A stretch of DNA of 58,654 nucleotides from Butyrivibrio sp. (GTDB taxonomy: Bacteria > Bacillota > Clostridia > Lachnospirales > Lachnospiraceae): the NCBI GenBank assembly GCA_014799955.1, contig JAAVHB010000015.1:1-58654 (forward strand), in the 5' to 3' direction. The position numbers and the translations under genes are program-made. Below the pieces are notes generated by a model. It did not search any database, was not told the DNA's origin, and was given only the letters and a program-made list of their open reading frames with translations. This document shows, one piece after another, positions 6,286-54,396 of the stretch; positions within the stretch are counted from its first letter, which is position 1; the number at the start of each line of letters is the position of its first letter.

Positions 6286-7077
6286 ATGGATTCGGAGCAG
6301 ATAACGGAAAAGAATACCGATACGGAAAGAATTCTGAATATAGCGATTGAGGCAGGCCGCATCCTGCTTGAGAACGGAGCCGAGATATTCAGAGTTGAGG
6401 AAACCATGGAGCGGATTACGGGTCACTACGGCATGGAAAAAAGGGATTTTTATGTGCTGACCAACGGCATTTTTGCAACCGGGAATTCCTTTGCGGCTGT
6501 GCGGCAGATTTCGGTCAGCAGCGGCGCGAGGCTTGACAAGATAGTTGCGGTAAACCAGCTTTCGCGTGAGATTGCCGAAGGGCGTTATACGCCTTCGGAG
6601 GCGGAGGAAAGGCTTGAGCAAATCCGGAGCATGAGGGATAAAAGACCGATTATGCAGATTCTTGCTTCGGGAGTGGGGAGCGCGGGCTTTTCCGTGCTTT
6701 TCGGCGGAAGTCCGATGGACGCGGCGGTGGCGTTCGCTGCGGGAATTATTCTGTATATTTATATACTCTATGTCGCCAATCCGCATCTGTCCAAAATACC
6801 GGGCAATATTTTCGGGAGTGCGCTGGTAACCTTTATATGCATTTTCTGTTACAGACTCGGCATCGGCGAGGGGCTGAGCCATATGGTAATCGGGGCGGTA
6901 ATACCTCTTATTCCCGGAGTGGAGTTTGCGAACGGGGTAAGGGACATAGCCTACGGCGATTATCTGTCCGGCTTTATAAGGCTTCTTGACGCCATTCTGG
7001 TGTTTGTCAGCATAGCTATCGGAGTGGGTGTTGTTTTTCTTATATACGGACATGCGTTCGGAGGTACGATTATATGA
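6286..7077 (+). CDS. Threonine/serine exporter, large (ThrE N/YjjP-like) subunit
   Basis: A 263-residue protein of the ThrE/YjjP family (DUF1212). The N-terminal half (to ~125) is the soluble amphipathic domain, with 'LENGAEIFRVEETMERI' and 'NGIFATG', and the C-terminal half has about five membrane helices. It overlaps the small partner gene by four bases, and the pair would form an inner-membrane exporter for small amino acids or carboxylates. The frame is open to an ATG at 6211, but a -10 box TATAAT at 6252-6257 lies inside that extension. ATG 6286, at the family's usual start, is therefore chosen. No convincing -35 box was found at the right spacing. Members of this family have also been linked to succinate transport, so the substrate is not certain. 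Confidence 0.82.
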   Translation: MDSEQITEKNTDTERILNIAIEAGRILLENGAEIFRVEETMERITGHYGMEKRDFYVLTNGIFATGNSFAAVRQISVSSGARLDKIVAVNQLSREIAEGRYTPSEAEERLEQIRSMRDKRPIMQILASGVGSAGFSVLFGGSPMDAAVAFAAGIILYIYILYVANPHLSKIPGNIFGSALVTFICIFCYRLGIGEGLSHMVIGAVIPLIPGVEFANGVRDIAYGDYLSGFIRLLDAILVFVSIAIGVGVVFLIYGHAFGGTII

Positions 7078-13061: not shown

Positions 13062-13088
13062 AAAAAACCGCCAAGGTACCCTAAGCGG
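13062..13088 (-). terminator. Riboswitch-controlled terminator of purO-purH
   Basis: On the minus strand a nine-base stem (CCGCTTAGG with CCTTGGCGG, one mismatch and one G-U) closes a GTA loop and is followed by six T. It lies directly after the ZTP aptamer and ~20 bases before purO. Its left arm adjoins the 3' part of the aptamer, so ligand binding can compete with it. Confidence 0.85.
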
Positions 13089-13158
13089 CGCCCAGACGGT
13101 CGGCAATTACATGCTGCGCTCCCCGTGGGTAATCCCACTTTCCGTCAGTTACGCAGCC
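13089..13158 (-). promoter_or_regulatory. ZTP riboswitch (pfl motif)
   Basis: Read on the minus strand, the segment has the conserved pieces of the pfl/ZTP aptamer in order: CTGCGTAACTGACGGAA, then a hairpin GTGGG-ATTA-CCCAC, then GGGGAGCGCAG, which pairs back with the opening CTGCG. After a short joining region comes CCGACCGTCTGGGCG, the 3' hairpin whose CCGnCUGGGC core is a hallmark of the class. ZTP riboswitches sense ZMP/ZTP, which builds up when 10-formyl-THF is short, and turn on purine and folate genes. Placing one before purO-purH, whose products consume ZMP (AICAR), fits exactly. The expression platform is the terminator at 13062-13088. Confidence 0.92.
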
Positions 13159-13167
13159 GTTAATATT

Positions 13168-40358: not shown

Positions 40359-40967
40359 ATGGATATAAAAAAATTCAAGTGGACAAGAGAACCAAAAGAA
40401 TACCATATGGATAGAAACAAGATCGAAATTGTTTCAAATCCCCATACGGATTTATGGCAGAGAACTTACTATCATTTTCAAAATGACAATGCCCCGGTAT
40501 TTCAAATGGAGACAGAAGAAAAATATTTCAGCTTTGTTGTAAAAACAGAGTTTACAGAAAGTCATCACCGCTTCGACCAATGCGGCATTGTCATGTACCT
40601 TGACAGCGAAAACTGGTTAAAGGCTTCCGTTGAATACGAAAATGAAAAATACCAGCATTTAGGTAGCGTTGTAACCAATCAGGGATATTCAGACTGGGCA
40701 ACAACCGTGATAGATGCCTCTGTAAAATCCATGTGGTATCGCTTTAGCCGCAGAGAAGACGACTATTGTGTAGAATGCTCAACAGACGGTATCGATTTTC
40801 AGCAAATGCGGATTTGCCATATGCATAAAGGAGCCGGAAAAATCCAATTTGGCATTTACGTCTGCTCCCCGGAAGAATCTTCCTTTAAAGCAGTCTTTAC
40901 CAATATGGCAATCACCCAATGCCAATGGAAAGCCCACAACGGCCAACAACCAGATAAAAATCTTTGA
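40359..40967 (+). CDS. DUF1349 domain protein
   Basis: A 202-residue protein of the DUF1349 family: beta-rich, with 'FSFVVKTEF...FDQCGIVMYLDSENWLKASVEYEN' and 'WYRFSRREDDYCVECSTDGIDFQQMRI' as typical strands of a concanavalin-like sandwich. DUF1349 proteins (YxaL-like/regulation of enolase protein 1) are found in many bacteria without a solid function. ATG 40359 has GGAG ahead. It is monocistronic and precedes the large inverted repeat at 41043. Confidence 0.85.
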   Translation: MDIKKFKWTREPKEYHMDRNKIEIVSNPHTDLWQRTYYHFQNDNAPVFQMETEEKYFSFVVKTEFTESHHRFDQCGIVMYLDSENWLKASVEYENEKYQHLGSVVTNQGYSDWATTVIDASVKSMWYRFSRREDDYCVECSTDGIDFQQMRICHMHKGAGKIQFGIYVCSPEESSFKAVFTNMAITQCQWKAHNGQQPDKNL

Positions 40968-41042
40968 TTCCACTTTACAAGTTTACAAGCCACACCGCCA
41001 ACCCCTCTTAAATTCCTTGTCCGTGCATTTTGCCGATACCCA

Positions 41043-41180
41043 GCAGGAGCAGCCATAGGAATGTCTTCCGGGCCTTGATGAAAACGCCGGCACTTATGCA
41101 CCGTCCTTTGGTGCATTAGTACCGCTGCGTTTTCATAGAGCGAAAGCGTGCCCAGAAGACATTCCTATGGCTGCTCCTGC
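41043..41180. repeat. 138-bp nested inverted repeat (MITE or structured RNA candidate)
   Basis: The outer arms 41043-41068 and 41155-41180 are complementary over 26 bases without a mismatch. Inside follow GGGC/GCCC (41070-41073 with 41150-41153), then a ten-base perfect helix ATGAAAACGC/GCGTTTTCAT (41078-41087 with 41127-41136). A terminal hairpin CGG/CCG plus ATGCACC/GGTGCAT (to 41124) has a seven-base loop. A small GC-GAAA-GC hairpin sits in the asymmetric gap at 41140-41147. The whole element folds as one long rod. No transposase or clear target duplication flanks it, no U-tract follows. It may be a miniature element or a structured RNA. Confidence 0.85.
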
Positions 41181-41326
41181 GTCCCCATCCCCAAAAAAAC
41201 CTCCCCACCAAGGAATAATTCCCCCTCTTTTTGGTAAAATTGTAATAGAAACAGAACCCCACACTCAAAACTCTATCCAATATCACTTAAAATGAAATAT
41301 TTTAGGAAATATTTTCAAAATACATC

Positions 41327-41440: not shown

Positions 41441-42442
41441 ATGGCAGTAAAAGTAGCAATCAATGGTTTTGGACGTATTGGTCGTCTTGCATTCAGACAG
41501 ATGTTCGGTGCAGAAGGATACGAAGTAGTAGCAATCAATGACTTGACAAGTCCTAAGATGCTGGCACATTTATTAAAATATGATTCAGCTCAGGGTAAAT
41601 ATGCATTAGCTGATAAAGTAACAGCTGGTGAAGATTCCATCACAGTTGACGGAAAAGAAATCAAAATCTACGCAAAGGCAAACGCTGAAGAGCTTCCTTG
41701 GGGAGATTTAGATGTAGACGTTGTATTAGAATGTACAGGCTTCTATACATCCAAAGAAAAAGCATCTGCTCACATCAAAGCAGGCGCTAAGAAAGTTGTT
41801 ATTTCTGCTCCAGCAGGAAATGACCTTCCTACAATCGTTTACAATGTAAACCATACAACATTAACAAAGGAAGATACTGTTATTTCTGCAGCTTCCTGTA
41901 CAACAAACTGCTTAGCACCTATGGCTAAGGCTCTTCATGAGTTAGCAGGCATCAAGTCTGGTATCATGAGCACAATCCATGCTTACACAGGCGATCAGAT
42001 GATCCTTGACGGACCACAGAGAAAAGGCGATTTAAGAAGAAGCCGTGCAGGCGCTGTAAATATCGTTCCAAACTCAACAGGTGCTGCAAAAGCTATCGGT
42101 TTAGTTATTCCTGAATTAAACGGTAAATTAATCGGTTCCGCTCAGCGTGTACCTACCCCAACAGGTTCTACAACTATCTTAGTTGCAACTGTTGAAAAAT
42201 CCGTAACAAAAGAAGAAATCAATGCAGCTATGAAAGCAGCAGCTACAGAATCCTATGGTTACAATGAAGATGAAATCGTATCCAGCGATATCGTTGGTAT
42301 GACATATGGTTCTTTATTCGATGCAACTCAGACAATGGTTGGCGAAGACAACTTAGTACAGGTTGTATCCTGGTATGACAATGAGAACTCTTATGTAAGC
42401 CAGATGGTTCGTACAATCAAATACTTTGCTGAATTAGCATAA
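41441..42442 (+). CDS. gap: Glyceraldehyde-3-phosphate dehydrogenase
   Basis: A 333-residue GapA. The NAD fold has '[18 protein letters not shown]', the catalytic Cys153 lies in [12 protein letters not shown], and His lies in '[12 protein letters not shown]'. '[16 protein letters not shown]' closes the protein. It oxidises glyceraldehyde-3-phosphate with NAD in glycolysis. The codon use is strongly biased (frequent A/T-ending optimal codons), as for a highly expressed gene. It has its own promoter and operator, and a terminator-type hairpin separates it from pgk. Confidence 0.97.
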
Positions 42443-43913: not shown

Positions 43914-44663
43914 ATGGCCAGAAAAAAAATCATTGCCGGCAACTGGAAAATGAACATGACTCCCAGTGAAGCGGTAGAATTGATCAACACATTAAAACCA
44001 TTAGTAGCTACTGAGGAAGCAGACGTTGTTTTCTGTGTACCTGCTATTGACATTATCCCTGCTATGGAAGCAGCAAAAGGCTCCAACATCCAGATTGGTG
44101 CAGAAAATATGTACTTTGAGGAAAAAGGTGCATACACAGGAGAAATCGCTCCTGCAATGCTTACGGATGTAGGAGTAAAATATGTCATCATCGGACATTC
44201 CGAAAGAAGAGAATACTTTGCAGAAACAGATGAGACAGTAAATAAAAAAGTATTAAAGGCTTTCGAGCATGGTATTACCCCAATCGTATGCTGTGGCGAG
44301 ACCCTTACCCAGAGAGAACAGGGCGTTACCATTGATTTCATCCGTCAGCAGATTAAGATTGCGTTTTTAAATGTTACAGCAGACCAGGCAAAAACAGCAG
44401 TTATCGCTTATGAACCAATCTGGGCAATCGGAACAGGCAAGACAGCTACTTCCGATCAGGCACAGGAAGTCTGCTCCGCTATCCGCACATGCATTGGAGA
44501 AATCTATGATGAAGCTACCGCAGAAGCAATCCGCATTCAGTACGGCGGTTCCGTAAATGCTTCCACAGCAGCAGAATTATTTGCAAAACCGGACATCGAC
44601 GGCGGCCTTGTAGGCGGTGCAGCATTAAAGCCGGATTTTGGAAAGATTGTAAATTATAAATAA
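43914..44663 (+). CDS. tpiA: Triose-phosphate isomerase
   Basis: A 249-residue TIM barrel. '[11 protein letters not shown]' holds the catalytic Lys, 'VIIGHSERR' the His, and '[12 protein letters not shown]' the Glu and flexible loop. 'QYGGSVN' and '[10 protein letters not shown]' bind the phosphate. It interconverts DHAP and glyceraldehyde-3-phosphate. It follows pgk by 49 bases with AAGGAGA as ribosome site, so the pair is one transcript ending in the terminator at 44695. Confidence 0.97.
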
Positions 44664-44694
44664 GAGTTTGTTTAGAACCTTATAAAAGGAGAAA

Positions 44695-44735
44695 GACATC
44701 CCAAAAGCCATTGATGGTTTTTGGGATGTCTTTTT
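44695..44735 (+). terminator. Terminator after tpiA
   Basis: A stem GACATCCCAAAA with TTTTGGGATGTC plus inner CCAT/ATGG, followed by TTTTT. Confidence 0.92.
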
Positions 44736-45132: not shown

Positions 45133-45205
45133 TAAGTTATAGAAAAATACATAGGCGGGATTAAGCATAAAACAAATGAGAAATATAAAAAGGAGGAAAA
45201 CAAAA

Positions 45206-48200
45206 GTGAAATCAAAAAGCTCAACAAAAAAAGCAATGAGAATCCTGTCCTTGCTGTTAGCAGCATCCCTTTTCTTAGGCACCCAAGGGTTTACTGTATT
45301 TGCAGAAACCATTAGCGGGAATGGGACAGCCGCCGCAGGAAGCAAGGAGCAGGAAAATGACGGGGAGGGAGGAAATAGCCAGACAGAACCGGAAGCCGTA
45401 GATACGGAAATTGATTCAACCTATCTGGAGGATTCTACTAATCAGCAACAGGAAATGCTCCCGGATAGCAATGTTAGTGAAAACAATGCTCGTGTGGGAG
45501 AAGGAGGGCCTCAGAATCCCGTTCATCACTGCGCACTGGAGAGTGGTAGCACAGATTATACGGATTTTAGTTACGTATATTTTGGAGCCTATCCCCAAAG
45601 TGAAGTGACAGATAGTGCTACTATAGCTGCTATAGATAATGCTATCGCCATGTCTGGAACGAGAGAGGATGCAGAGATGGATGCAGGGATAGATGTATGG
45701 GTAAACGGAACAAAGTACCGTAGGATTAGTAAGGATGATACAAATTACGGCTATTTTTTTGACTATATGCCAACAAACAACGGCTATCGCTATTTCAAAT
45801 GGCAACGAATCAAGTGGAGGGTGTTGGAAAATGACGGAAACACGTTATTTGTGATAGCGGATAAAATTGTTGACTGTAAGGACTATAATGATCTATACAG
45901 CAACACTACATGGAGTTACAGCACCATAAGGTATTGGCTGAATAATAGCTTTTATAACACAGCTTTTAGCAATGATGAGCAGAGTGCTGTTGCAACACAA
46001 ATGATAGTAAATGAGGATAACCCATTCTATGGGACTAAAGGTGGAACTAAATCAAGGGATAATATTTATCTGCTTTCTATTAGTGAAGCGAAAAATCCAA
46101 TATATGGATTTTGCAGTTCCTTTACTGCTAATTCTATGAGTCGGAAAATGAAAACAAGTGATTATGCCAACGCAAGAGGCATGTGGACAGAAGGTATTGC
46201 TGATTATGAATATGAATGGAATTGGTGGTTGCGTTCTCCCGGTGGTGGCGATGACTGCATCCGCGCTGCCGCTGTCAAAGATGGGGAAATCATTGGGGGT
46301 GGCTATTATGTCAACTATAGCCAGTGCGGTGTCTGCCCGGTCTTACATATAAATCTGTCATCTGATACTTGGTTCATGGCAACTGGCGAAGCCGATGACG
46401 AAGGAGAATACGTCGGTGTACTGGCTCCCGAGGCAAGCATAAAGGGTGGAACCTACTTCACATCACAGAAAATAGAATTGGCTTCTGCTACGGAAGGAGC
46501 AGAAATCTACTATACAACAGATGGGAGCACACCGGGAAAAGAAAACGGAATCAGTTACACTGGTAAGATATTAGTCCAGAATCCCATTACCCTTAAGGCA
46601 GTTGCGGTCAAGGACGGAATGGTGGACAGCCAAATTATGGAAGAAACCTACAAATTTTCTGCGCCAATATCAGAAACAATAACAATTCCCGCACCTGTCC
46701 TGGGGGAAAATGCAAGTGGTACTGTAGAGAACGAGGAGGTTCTCCAGTTCTTTCCGGGAAACTTTAGCCTGTCATCAACGTTGGTTCCGATTAGCGCAAG
46801 CCATACGGTAGAGACGAACGGTTCGCATACGCTGAAGGTTGCCATAGGGATTAAAGAGGCAGACTGGCTGGATAAAAGCTCCGAATGGAATAATTTCAAA
46901 GAGAGTGTAAAGACACTCCAAGAGAGCCAAAGACGGATTGATGCAATGGAGTCTTTATGCAAGGCATTTGGAGGAGATACGGTTTCTTTCTTTGAGTCAG
47001 AAAAAATTAAAGCAAAGCCGGAGGTTTCTGTCCTGGGGTACTATGAATATAAAATAGATAAGGATAATAAGGTGATAACGAATTCTGGGATGCTTCAGAC
47101 GGATGCAAAATGGAAAGCAAGTTGTGACTGGCAGTTCTTCACGCCAATCGGTCCTATGTATATAAGTATAGAAGGATCCGGAAAAATAACAGGGAAATTA
47201 GGTCTTTCCTATGAATATGAAGACGATGGAGCCGCAAGCTTTTTAAACGGAACATGGGAAAAGCAAGGAGAAGTTACCCTGACTCCCGGTCTATCCTTAG
47301 AAGGCGGCTATGGTGTAGCAAAAATAGCAACCATTGGAGCCAGTGGTTCTGCAGAAGTACCTATTCAGATTTATCCTGCTTCAAAGGCAGATTTTGATGC
47401 AGCCGCATCGGTACATGTATATATAATCTTTATACTGGATGCAACTTGGGATCTTGCAACTTATCATATAAACCTTTGGGATACCACTAATGATACCACT
47501 AATGTCATCAGCCCGAAAGGAAGCTCCAGAAGCGGCATTTCCCAAGGGGATGTGGCGGATATGCAGCTGAATCCGGAGGACTTAAAGCCGGTAGACCGTT
47601 CCTATGCGGAACATACCACCTCATGGCAGGGAAACACAGCTTCCAGTACGGATACCAAGAGCCTGTCAGCAAGGGCAGGTGCAGAAGGGGAAACGGCTGC
47701 TGGAGAGACAGAACATGTCCTGCAGTCCGGCATCATGCCCAATTCACTGCCTGCAATCAAGCAGATTGGAAACGATACCGTGATGGTATTCCAGGCAAAC
47801 GATGCAAGCCGCAACACCCTGGACAGTTCGGTCCTTATGTATTCCGTATACAGAAGCGGTACATGGTCAGAGCCGGTGCCTGTATGGGATAACGGAACCT
47901 GTGACATGTATGCGGACCTGCAGGTTATAAACGATGACTTGTATCTCGTATGGCAGAAGGAAAACGCCCGGATTGCCGAAAATGGGGAAAACGGCGAGCA
48001 GATACTTTCCCGTATGGCGGAAAAATCCGAAATCTGCTTTGCAAAATATGACCAGGAACAGAAGAAATTTGTGGACGTAACCTATATAACCTCTGATAAA
48101 AAAGTAGACATGATGCCAAAGCTGGCTACAAACGGAAACAAGGTCACGGCAGTCTGGATCACCAACAGCGAAAACAGCTTCTTACAGGAAGAGGGAACCA

Positions 48201-50179
48201 ACCGAATCGTTTATGCGGATTGGGAAGATGGTGCCTTTTCGGAAGAAAAAGTGCTCTGTGAAATGGAATCCGGAATAGAAGAGTTTGCCCCGTATTATGC
48301 AGACGATACTTTGTATGCAGCATATGTCTCCAATATTTCGCAAGAAAACGCTGCCAATCAGGCATTCCTAAGCACAGTAAACGGTGGGGACAAAGAGGTT
48401 TCCGATGGAAGCACCCTGACCTCCAACCTTCAATGGCAGGATGGAGTACTTTACTATTATGAAGGCGGAACCATGAAAGCCTATGACATGGCAGCCGATG
48501 AACTATCTACCATCACAGCAGGAGAAAGCCCGATCAGTGCTAACGGAAAGATCTTCGTAAACGACGGAAAGACAGCAGTGCTGTGGAGCGCGCCGGATCA
48601 GGTAACAGGCACCTCCAAGGTGTATTCCTCCGTAAAAACGGCAGAAGGATTTAGCAAGCCGATAGCCTTATACAGCACAGATTCCTCCATTAAATATCTG
48701 GACGGAGTATTAAACGCAGACGGTTCATGGCAGTTCATGATGAATACAGCGAAGACAGGCTCACAAGAGCAGCTCCATTCCCTTGTATTCGTTACCAAAG
48801 AGGAGGCGCCGGAAATAGAAGTGGAATCCATTACTGTGGATGATGCCGCAAAAGAAAATGAAGCAACGCCTATTTCCTACATGGTGACCAATACAAGTGA
48901 AGAGACCATTACAAGCCTTGTGCTTACCATAGAGGGCGAAAATGGATTCCAGGAACAACAGGACGCTCCCGCACGGGCAGGGCTGGGAGAAAGTGCTAAT
49001 GACACGGCAGATACGGAAGGCGGAAATGGATTCTGGAAACAACAGAACATTCCTGTATCCATAGCGCCGGGAGAAACTGTTTATGACACGGTAGATGTGG
49101 ACTTGGCAGAAGTAACGGATACCACCAATGTGAACATCACACTTTGCGCCCAGGGACAGGCCAATACCAGAAACAATACAGTGGAAGCAGTCATAGGCCA
49201 GACGGATCTGACGCTGGAGGCCGCTATGATAGAAACGGAAGAGGATGTCTGCATCGTGGCAACTGTATCCAACAACAGCATGATTCCGGCAGATGCCACC
49301 CTTACCCTTTATGAGGACGTGGAACAGACCAGACAGATAGAAACCGTTCCAATGGGAGAAATATCAAAAGAAGAGGGAGGAAGCCATACATTCTACTTGA
49401 AAAAGAGCAGCCTTACCATGAATGAAAACGGCGCTGTGTATATGCCGCTGGTTGTGACCTCTGATAAAACGGACAGCAATGAAGATAACAACAGGGTAAT
49501 CGAGATTGCCTATGCCACTCTGGAGGATCCGGATGAAAAGGGTGAAGGCGGAACGACAGAAGGCGGAACAACAGAAGGCGGAACAACAGAAGGTGGAACA
49601 ACAGAAGGCGGTGATAAGAAAGAGGGCAGTACCGATAACAGGGAATCCATAAAAGTAACCCAATTAACGATTACTGCACCGTCTAAAAAACTGGCAGCCG
49701 GAAAGAAGGTAAAACTGACTCTTGGCGTTGCACCGGCAAATGCCGCCAATAAAGAAGTCTCATGGGAGACAAGCAATAAAAAGTATGCCACCATAGACAA
49801 GAATGGAATGCTCACTCTGAAAAAAGCAGGGGCAGGTAAGACGGTTACAGTCACTGCCACCGCAAAAGACGGCAGCGGCAAAAAAGCCACTATAAAGATC
49901 AAGATCATGAAGCATGCCGTAAAAAGCGTGAAGCTGAAAGCACCTTCCAAGACTTTAAAGGCAGGAAAGACCATGACAGTCAAGGCGACCGTAAAGACCA
50001 CTGGAAAGAGTGTGAATAAGACTTTAAAATGGCAAAGCTCTAATACCAAATATGCCACCGTCAACCAGAAAGGAAAGGTGACAGCCAAAAAAGCTGGAAA
50101 AGGAAAGACTGTAACCATTACGGCAGTATCTACGGACGGAAGCAATAAAAAGGCAAAAGTAAAGATTAAAATTAAATAA
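45206..50179 (+). CDS. Large secreted repeat protein with DUF6273 and Ig-like (Big_2) domains
   Basis: A 1657-residue secreted protein. Start GTG 45206 has AGGAGG nine bases before it; the ATG at 45176 would put this site inside the gene. An export signal (MRILSLLLAASLFLGTQGFTVFAE) opens it. The DUF6273 domain (~110-395) has its hallmark WWLRSPGGGDD and PVLHINLS. A CHB_HEX_C_1-like Ig domain (~410-485) contains IYYTTDGSTPG. A long middle region is followed by CARDB-like folds (~1205-1430), a TEGG-T linker (~1446-1470), and two Big_2 Ig domains at the end. No LPXTG or SLH anchor is visible, so attachment is unclear. It likely binds host or microbial glycans or proteins. Confidence 0.85.
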   Translation: MKSKSSTKKAMRILSLLLAASLFLGTQGFTVFAETISGNGTAAAGSKEQENDGEGGNSQTEPEAVDTEIDSTYLEDSTNQQQEMLPDSNVSENNARVGEGGPQNPVHHCALESGSTDYTDFSYVYFGAYPQSEVTDSATIAAIDNAIAMSGTREDAEMDAGIDVWVNGTKYRRISKDDTNYGYFFDYMPTNNGYRYFKWQRIKWRVLENDGNTLFVIADKIVDCKDYNDLYSNTTWSYSTIRYWLNNSFYNTAFSNDEQSAVATQMIVNEDNPFYGTKGGTKSRDNIYLLSISEAKNPIYGFCSSFTANSMSRKMKTSDYANARGMWTEGIADYEYEWNWWLRSPGGGDDCIRAAAVKDGEIIGGGYYVNYSQCGVCPVLHINLSSDTWFMATGEADDEGEYVGVLAPEASIKGGTYFTSQKIELASATEGAEIYYTTDGSTPGKENGISYTGKILVQNPITLKAVAVKDGMVDSQIMEETYKFSAPISETITIPAPVLGENASGTVENEEVLQFFPGNFSLSSTLVPISASHTVETNGSHTLKVAIGIKEADWLDKSSEWNNFKESVKTLQESQRRIDAMESLCKAFGGDTVSFFESEKIKAKPEVSVLGYYEYKIDKDNKVITNSGMLQTDAKWKASCDWQFFTPIGPMYISIEGSGKITGKLGLSYEYEDDGAASFLNGTWEKQGEVTLTPGLSLEGGYGVAKIATIGASGSAEVPIQIYPASKADFDAAASVHVYIIFILDATWDLATYHINLWDTTNDTTNVISPKGSSRSGISQGDVADMQLNPEDLKPVDRSYAEHTTSWQGNTASSTDTKSLSARAGAEGETAAGETEHVLQSGIMPNSLPAIKQIGNDTVMVFQANDASRNTLDSSVLMYSVYRSGTWSEPVPVWDNGTCDMYADLQVINDDLYLVWQKENARIAENGENGEQILSRMAEKSEICFAKYDQEQKKFVDVTYITSDKKVDMMPKLATNGNKVTAVWITNSENSFLQEEGTNRIVYADWEDGAFSEEKVLCEMESGIEEFAPYYADDTLYAAYVSNISQENAANQAFLSTVNGGDKEVSDGSTLTSNLQWQDGVLYYYEGGTMKAYDMAADELSTITAGESPISANGKIFVNDGKTAVLWSAPDQVTGTSKVYSSVKTAEGFSKPIALYSTDSSIKYLDGVLNADGSWQFMMNTAKTGSQEQLHSLVFVTKEEAPEIEVESITVDDAAKENEATPISYMVTNTSEETITSLVLTIEGENGFQEQQDAPARAGLGESANDTADTEGGNGFWKQQNIPVSIAPGETVYDTVDVDLAEVTDTTNVNITLCAQGQANTRNNTVEAVIGQTDLTLEAAMIETEEDVCIVATVSNNSMIPADATLTLYEDVEQTRQIETVPMGEISKEEGGSHTFYLKKSSLTMNENGAVYMPLVVTSDKTDSNEDNNRVIEIAYATLEDPDEKGEGGTTEGGTTEGGTTEGGTTEGGDKKEGSTDNRESIKVTQLTITAPSKKLAAGKKVKLTLGVAPANAANKEVSWETSNKKYATIDKNGMLTLKKAGAGKTVTVTATAKDGSGKKATIKIKIMKHAVKSVKLKAPSKTLKAGKTMTVKATVKTTGKSVNKTLKWQSSNTKYATVNQKGKVTAKKAGKGKTVTITAVSTDGSNKKAKVKIKIK
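48935..49102 (+). repeat. 84-bp diverged tandem duplication in surface gene
   Basis: Two 84-bp blocks (48935-49018 and 49019-49102) encode GENGFQEQQDAP... and GGNGFWKQQNIP..., then GESANDTAD and GETVYDTVD. The second fits the CARDB strand order better, so the first looks like the inserted, drifting copy. Confidence 0.8.
49544..49612 (+). repeat. 15-bp tandem repeat coding TEGGT linker
   Basis: Four units of GAAGGCGGAACAACA-type sequence plus part of a fifth, in frame, coding EGGTT repeats. The first unit has one base change, the fourth another. Copy number may vary between strains. Confidence 0.9.
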
Positions 50180-54037: not shown

Positions 54038-54375
54038 GGGGTAGTAAAGGTTTCGACAGGGGTCTTGCAGCTGGAGAAGCTATCCGCAGGTGATGCGTCA
54101 AATCACGACAATAAATATAAACGCTGAAGATAATTTAGCATTCGCTGCCTAGTTGCAGCGTGTCCGCCTTAGTGCACCTACACATTAAGAACCGGGCATC
54201 GACTATGTAGGAAACGACATGGGCAAAGCTTTGAGCCTGTGGGCGTACAATGAAGCTACTAAAACCTGCAGGGTGTTAGTTCCCGGCAGGCAGAGGGAAT
54301 GAAAAAGAACTGACTATGATAGTAGAAGTACAGGGAATGGGCTTTTGGACACGGGTTCGACTCCCGTCTACTCCA
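54038..54375 (+). ncRNA. ssrA: Transfer-messenger RNA (SsrA)
   Basis: The 5' end GGGGTAG(TAAAGGTTTCGAC) pairs with CTACTCC at the 3' end (54368-54374), and TTCGACTCCCG forms the T-arm. The tag frame is near 54120: it ends in AEDNLAFAA and stops with TAG, so degraded proteins would receive an LAFAA-type C-terminus. Several pseudoknot-forming GC blocks follow. CCA is not encoded. The RNA rescues ribosomes on broken messages with SmpB, encoded immediately before, and RNase R. Confidence 0.95.
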
Positions 54376-54396
54376 TGATGGCTATTTACAAAAAAG

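Follow-up and report, generated by a model that had tools for sequence, protein, structure and literature searches.

The window, by which we mean the whole stretch of 58,654 nucleotides analyzed here, is a contig of a Butyrivibrio sp. genome (Lachnospiraceae). Rfam searches of the whole window at gathering score identified a tmRNA gene, a ZMP/ZTP riboswitch, and a tRNA. The hairpin at 41043-41180 is at the top of the list from an inverted-repeat scan of the window, and it lies between a 202-codon open frame and a gene that we take, by eye, to encode glyceraldehyde-3-phosphate dehydrogenase (Table 1). The upstream frame (40377-40928) has a relative with 73% identity at G000:C134:25897-26445. 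Farther along the window, a smaller hairpin just past a frame ending at 44663 is perhaps a terminator. A frame of 1667 codons, whose start is signal-like and which contains a run of GGTTE repeats, looks by eye like a large surface protein.

Table 1. Coordinates of the hairpin parts, neighboring genes, and other features of the window.
Feature	Position	Strand	Description
5' tail	about 41025..41042	+	Ends in CCA, one side of the basal internal loop; resembles GGCwTTTCGATAmmCA
Left outer arm	41043..41068	+	26 bases, complementary to the right arm without error
Conserved RNA core	41070..41153	+	Inner P1, P2 with CU bulge, distal hairpin, and GNRA mini-hairpin P3 (three-way junction)
Inner helix GGGC/GCCC	41070-41073 / 41150-41153	+	From sequence and fold
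Helix ATGAAAACG/CGTTTTCAT	41078-41086 / 41128-41136	+	From sequence and fold
P2 distal hairpin ATGCACC/GGTGCAT	41096..41116 (41096-41102 / 41110-41116)	+	Sequence and length vary among copies
CU bulge, 3' strand of P2	41125..41126	+	From fold and comparison of copies
P3 mini-hairpin GC-GAAA-GC	41140..41147	+	GNRA loop
Right outer arm	41155..41180	+	26 bases, complementary to the left arm without error
3' tail	about 41181..41197	+	GTCC start forms the other side of the basal internal loop; resembles CGTCC..TATCCAAA of related copies
Upstream neighbor	40359-40967		202-codon open frame
Downstream neighbor	41441-42442		Presumably glyceraldehyde-3-phosphate dehydrogenase
ZMP/ZTP riboswitch	13083-13162	-	Rfam
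Second hairpin	44692-44733		20-base arms, 95% complementary, 2-base gap
1667-codon frame	45176-50179		Presumably a large surface protein
tmRNA gene	54038-54378		Rfam

The sequence-only reading had described a near-perfect nested inverted repeat with 26-base arms, and the arms, the inner and distal helices, and the GAAA mini-hairpin are all present as it described them. The sequence 41043-41180 folds at -93.8 kcal/mol, whereas 200 shuffles that preserve its dinucleotides average -40.5 (sd 4.15), giving z -12.8. None of the 200 shuffles folded as well, which bears out the claim that the register of the helices is beyond chance. No T-run follows the right arm, so the U-tract of an intrinsic terminator is missing, and the frames across the hairpin span just 69 and 86 codons, with nothing else to support them; this agrees with the proposal that the hairpin is neither a terminator nor part of a gene. 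A coding role is not supported either: an open frame seen by eye through some copies of its kind, here called type-1, is thrown out of register in several other genera by one additional base. The resemblance of the flanks to the conserved tails of other copies indicates that the full element in the window exceeds 138 bp; in one related genome, 35 type-1 copies conserve the tail GGCwTTTCGATAmmCA. The window copy is a type-1 solo copy, and neither a TwoAYGGAY RNA nor a second copy of the new RNA was found adjoining it. No family of Rfam 15 matched the hairpin at gathering score in the window, and a search of eight loci at E up to 1 gave, on the element, nothing beyond long-hairpin or chance matches below threshold (e.g. 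MIR2118).

The core shared by the copies is ~84 bases long and is made up of an inner P1, a P2 carrying the CU bulge, a distal hairpin whose length varies, and a P3 of two pairs capped by a tetraloop. The window core scores 103.8 bits against covariance model R1 in a search of 100 loci. In an alignment of 114 distinct sequences, 92.3% of the cells in the helices are paired compared with 66.7% after shuffling, and both-sided changes occur in 29 of the 31 pairs (886 cells vs 269 shuffled). This signal was lost when the partners were slid by one to three columns. The 114-sequence alignment was fitted to the covariance model; in an independent MAFFT alignment of 25 sequences, 25 of the 31 pairs change on both sides. 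The compensatory base changes of a structured RNA are therefore found, and selection of the core as a folded molecule is well supported, in line with the earlier suggestion of selection on folding, although the counts do not represent independent events, as the copies are related. In P3, 112 of the 114 sequences have a GNRA loop, with six types (GAGA, GAAA, GGGA, GCAA, GCGA, and GGAA), and all 112 have a purine and none a pyrimidine at position 3. G-U pairs in the core exceed A-C mismatches by 142:37, which falls to 79:36 without the closing G-U pair and to 56:36 without a second G-U-rich pair, so part of the excess is concentrated in two pairs. The purine at position 3 of the GNRA loops and the excess of G-U over A-C speak for RNA rather than DNA.

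The sequence-only reading had proposed searching related Lachnospiraceae genomes with a covariance model, and this search uncovered a dispersed family. With a model built from 25 cores and 12 candidates scored per genome, 126 of 299 sampled Lachnospiraceae genomes carried the RNA (E up to 1e-4), corresponding to 125 of 298 sampled genera, and blastn with the 84-base core matched 58 of 397 family genomes. A phylum-wide sample of 299 genomes, Lachnospiraceae among them, gave four positives; all four are Lachnospiraceae and one is the window's own genome. In named genomes, the core pattern occurred in at least 117 stretches, and most of the 80 listed have record titles that name Lachnospiraceae or genera of this family, whereas a few bins bear other labels. 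Three matches (L188, L258, and L205) are in records titled Muribaculaceae or Mogibacterium, which are either mislabeled bins or real transfers. The window copy had no match in phages or plasmids at E 1e-5, and the core pattern had none in viral contigs. The window's genome has four strong copies, namely the window hairpin, C75:10273, C75:18750, and C57:3774, and five copies at E up to 0.01. At this threshold, among ten genomes most of which were picked for already having matches, we counted at least 141 copies in G271 (a lower bound, as 150 candidates were scored), 93 in G077, 31 in G388, 12 in G004, 6 each in G110 and G115, and 5 in G000. Local arrays were also observed: three tandem copies with a 151-base period lie directly before an exonuclease III-like gene at L055:1217-1630 (G388:C5), and three equal-scoring copies lie 187 bases apart on G113:C21.

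The new RNA is often found with TwoAYGGAY (RF01731), which has been listed as probably an RNA (PMC2864571) and has been given an improved structure (PMC11701678). Both are structured and multi-copy, have a long stem, occur in the same bacteria, and are found back to back. The basal loop of one TwoAYGGAY copy, in L090 (ACA-G..C-GTCC), resembles by eye that of the new RNA. However, the TwoAYGGAY tip consists of two AYGGAY hairpins and differs from the tip of the new core, and neither RF01731 nor any other Rfam family matched the new element above gathering score. In 139 kb of G271, chosen as stretches around copies, all five TwoAYGGAY matches lie a few hundred bases from a copy of the new RNA, back to back. 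Across all loci, the pairs within 700 bases were 47 divergent, 8 tandem (in one of these, L076, an insertion divides a single core), and 0 convergent. The divergent pairs comprise 24 mixed, 21 new/new, and 2 TwoAYGGAY/TwoAYGGAY pairs, and about 20 of the 47 are outside the G271, G401, and congener stretches. Two mixed pairs lie in the window's genome itself, each on C75. Of the 299 family genomes, 43 carry TwoAYGGAY. These overlap with the 126 carriers of the new RNA in 28 genomes, where about 18 would be expected if the two were independent; in the other 15, no new RNA was detected.

The strong conservation of the fold across so many genera would also suit a regulatory RNA that benefits the host, either a cis leader or a trans sponge, which was amplified and whose mobility is incidental. 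The proposal that the co-packaged TwoAYGGAY binds CsrA (PMC4333381) points in the same direction. We nevertheless consider this reading unlikely, as the genes next to the copies are unrelated, the orientation is unbiased, and related genomes hold anywhere between 0 and at least 141 copies, with none at E up to 0.01 in three congeners of the window's genome (G001, G002, and G003). A cis-regulator of one gene was rejected because the neighbors are unrelated. Most copies are intergenic: among 48 G271 copies flanked by a gene on either side, 44 are outside frames and 4 are inside frames of 102-120 codons, and outside G271, 12 of 204 copies are inside frames of at least 100 codons. Copies flanked by tandem genes show no significant sense preference (16:15 in G271; 67:51 elsewhere, p 0.17). 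We saw no enrichment of sigma-70-like promoters directed at the RNA (16 of 258 vs 11 shuffled), and a promoter of its own near the element is not supported. Promoters pointing away from the RNA are enriched (26 vs 5 and 30 vs 4 shuffled).

That the units move as DNA is a reading well supported by their sequences, because the same core occurs in units with unrelated ends and target duplications. In 764 kb of G271 and G401, chosen as stretches around copies, GTAACAGTTCAGCC ends with no more than 2 mismatches delimit 29 short units, and 23 of these units contain the core. Their flanks comprise 9 perfect 8-base duplications, 4 that match at 7 of 8 bases, and 16 that match at 1-6 of 8. Exact GTAACAGTTCAGCC ends number 263 in G401 and 23 in G271, compared with 0 for the backward control. 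One such unit with a perfect duplication contains TwoAYGGAY and an apparently decayed copy of the new RNA. Of the empty sites that had been expected, one was found, for a single unit elsewhere, in two congeners (G402 and G403); for the window copy, none was found in the congeners compared. A 63-bp unit at L123:18560-18622 consists of almost only GTAACAGTTCAGCC ends, without the core, and has a perfect 8-base duplication. No insertion-sequence partner was found for these ends. IS66 mobilization was rejected, since PF03050 is absent from G271, G401, and G077, and three congener IS66 copies have no GTAACAGTTCAGCC-like end within 3 mismatches. Many G401 contigs carry a GTAACAGTTCAGCC end about 40-80 bases from the start; the assembly possibly breaks at a longer repeat with such ends, which would be the missing autonomous element.

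A second end type did lead to a transposase. B91_16_CH has six 189-bp units with CAATGTCATTAAGTTAAG ends (two with one change) and with the core and basal loop inside, all six of which are flanked by perfect 9-10-base duplications, three at an identical site sequence. Ends of the CAATGTCATTAAGTTAAG type also bound a 1.6-kb insertion sequence at L325:499-2099 (G271:C9), although the genus of this element differs from that of the six units. It is itself inserted in a core, at the distal loop, and is flanked by a 9-base duplication; its 438-aa protein is an IS4-family transposase (NF033592, 164.6 bits with a cut-off of 115; PF01609, E 7.6e-25). A third end type, around GGTAATTGCGAAAC, was noticed by eye. 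The terminal inverted repeats of a MITE are therefore found at GTAACAGTTCAGCC and CAATGTCATTAAGTTAAG-type ends, both with target duplications, and the combination of no transposase of its own and ends common to a resident insertion sequence is found for one end type. Type-1 copies, including the window copy, have an end repeat that is only imperfect and no clear target duplication. At one type-1 locus, the pair is absent in G401, G402, and G403 and a remnant is left in G399, a pattern that looks like loss rather than insertion.

The inverted pairs of mostly intergenic palindromes would also fit a single-stranded DNA element of the REP or IS200/IS605 kind, in which a Y1 transposase recognizes the folded tip and the back-to-back pairs are like REP dimers. 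An unpaired CGTC 3' of type-1 stems is shared with the CGTC-tagged REPs described in PMC3733652. We regard such an element as improbable. Y1_Tnp was found in 2 of 10 genomes and is absent from the carriers G077, G388, and G004 and from the window's genome, some of these assemblies being incomplete, and Y1/RAYT mobilization was rejected on this ground. The copies have no replication-strand bias (49:48), which gives no support to a single-strand insertion bias. The purine at tetraloop position 3 and the target duplications of 8 to 10 bases also argue against it, and the core shared by units with unrelated ends speaks against the core as a transposase signal. Of the two substrates offered by the sequence-only reading, folded RNA is the more likely one and single-stranded DNA the less likely.

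Outside the core, the stem differs among copies and yet stays paired, with 16-85 Watson-Crick pairs (median 31) in 123 copies and up to 100 pairs in G271. Among 616 copy pairs of G271, G401, and congeners, limited to equal ungapped arms and to identities of at least 0.8 (core) and 0.5 (arms), the mean identity is 0.923 for the core and 0.723 for the arms; the stem thus evolves faster than the core. The arms differ at 6328 positions, of which 5249 changed on both sides with pairing kept and 844 on one arm; outside these genomes, the numbers were 134 and 43 of 195 (copies with N, short flanks, identical cores, or fewer than 12-15 arm pairs were excluded here and from the G-U and A-C counts of the arms). 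Template switching, which has been proposed to create and maintain RNA hairpins (PMC8794818), would explain such concerted changes. The basal loop of the CA..GTC form is present in 48 of 86 copies of G271, G401, and congeners and in 22 of 188 copies elsewhere, and the GA..GAC form in 0 of 86 and 7 of 188; mixed forms occur in none of these, and 159 of the 188 have neither form.

By symmetric scoring, the pooled arms of 123 copies (from 142 matches) have similar numbers of G-U and A-C (110:103). Splitting by arm length and position confined the G-U excess to the inner stem, at positions 8-27 (100:33 for the 180 copies with short arms, 42:17 for the 94 with long arms), and it is absent at positions 0-7 (26:40 and 25:18). 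Counted per element, G-U outnumbers A-C in 61 short-arm copies and the opposite holds in 17, compared with 28 and 35 long-arm copies. We read this as an RNA domain made of the core and roughly 28 bp of stem, with putative DNA ends outside. The ratio is reversed at positions 28-47 of the long arms (47:91), for which relatedness of the copies is the sole explanation we offer and may account for it, and is even beyond position 48 (25:28). These outer arms, together with the lack of promoter enrichment, would be expected of a palindrome that acts only as DNA, with the core as a spacer that stops cruciform formation and no role for RNA. This is very doubtful, as a mere spacer would not keep a GNRA loop, a CU bulge, and covarying helices. 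An assembly fold-back artifact or a chance inverted repeat can be dismissed in view of the z-score and of homologues in many independent assemblies, which among the matches listed include named isolates such as Oribacterium sinus DSM 17245 and Lachnospiraceae bacterium FE2018.

The element resembles several known repeats. Correia/NEMIS, ERIC, BOX, and RUP are likewise short, intergenic, folded, multi-copy, and moved in trans, and bacterial MITEs such as these have terminal repeats and target duplications (PMC10969869, PMC3049150). The new element differs in having a covarying RNA tip common to units with unrelated ends, which is not part of the descriptions of those MITEs that we compared. GTAG/CGTC-tagged REPs are also palindromes in inverted pairs, some with CGTC beside the stem, but REPs measure 20-40 bp (PMC3733652), whereas the new element measures about 130-190 bp and has a three-way junction and target duplications. 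The MRSC-65-2 motif is covarying and multi-copy and is thought to be a selfish structured repeat, but it is a single long stem from diverse phyla, unlike the new element (PMC11109978). The same source counts 250 mobile or repeat candidates, among which the new repeat may have been listed without a name. No description of it was found in the literature searched.

We conclude, with a probability of roughly 70%, that the window hairpin is a solo copy of a MITE-like, non-autonomous palindrome whose cargo is a conserved structured RNA domain, and that it belongs to a dispersed, multi-copy, mostly intergenic family. The miniature mobile element and the new structured RNA, offered earlier as alternatives, would then be true together. 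Resident transposases likely move the units in trans by way of the outer DNA ends, with an IS4-type enzyme for one end type. Stem pairing may be kept partly by self-templating, through template switches inside the palindrome, and in the part next to the core by selection on the RNA. The RNA would be made by readthrough from either side. Our guess, and the reading that we found most likely for its function, is that the RNA made in this way and carried as cargo binds a host factor common to these bacteria, so that insertions are tolerated or useful. More tentatively, the element may be defined by its RNA and not by a transposase: a folded domain with a basal loop and a self-templating stem would be mounted in several unrelated end sets, back to back with TwoAYGGAY or with itself, so that readthrough either way gives one sense RNA, which would act on a Lachnospiraceae-wide factor and pacify or parasitize the host.

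The finding adds a structured RNA without an Rfam match that is present in a major gut family, in 125 of the 298 genera sampled. It also places TwoAYGGAY, a candidate RNA since 2010 without a known role, inside mobile units. The hundreds of natural stems in the family could be used to test how long hairpins keep their pairing while their sequence changes.
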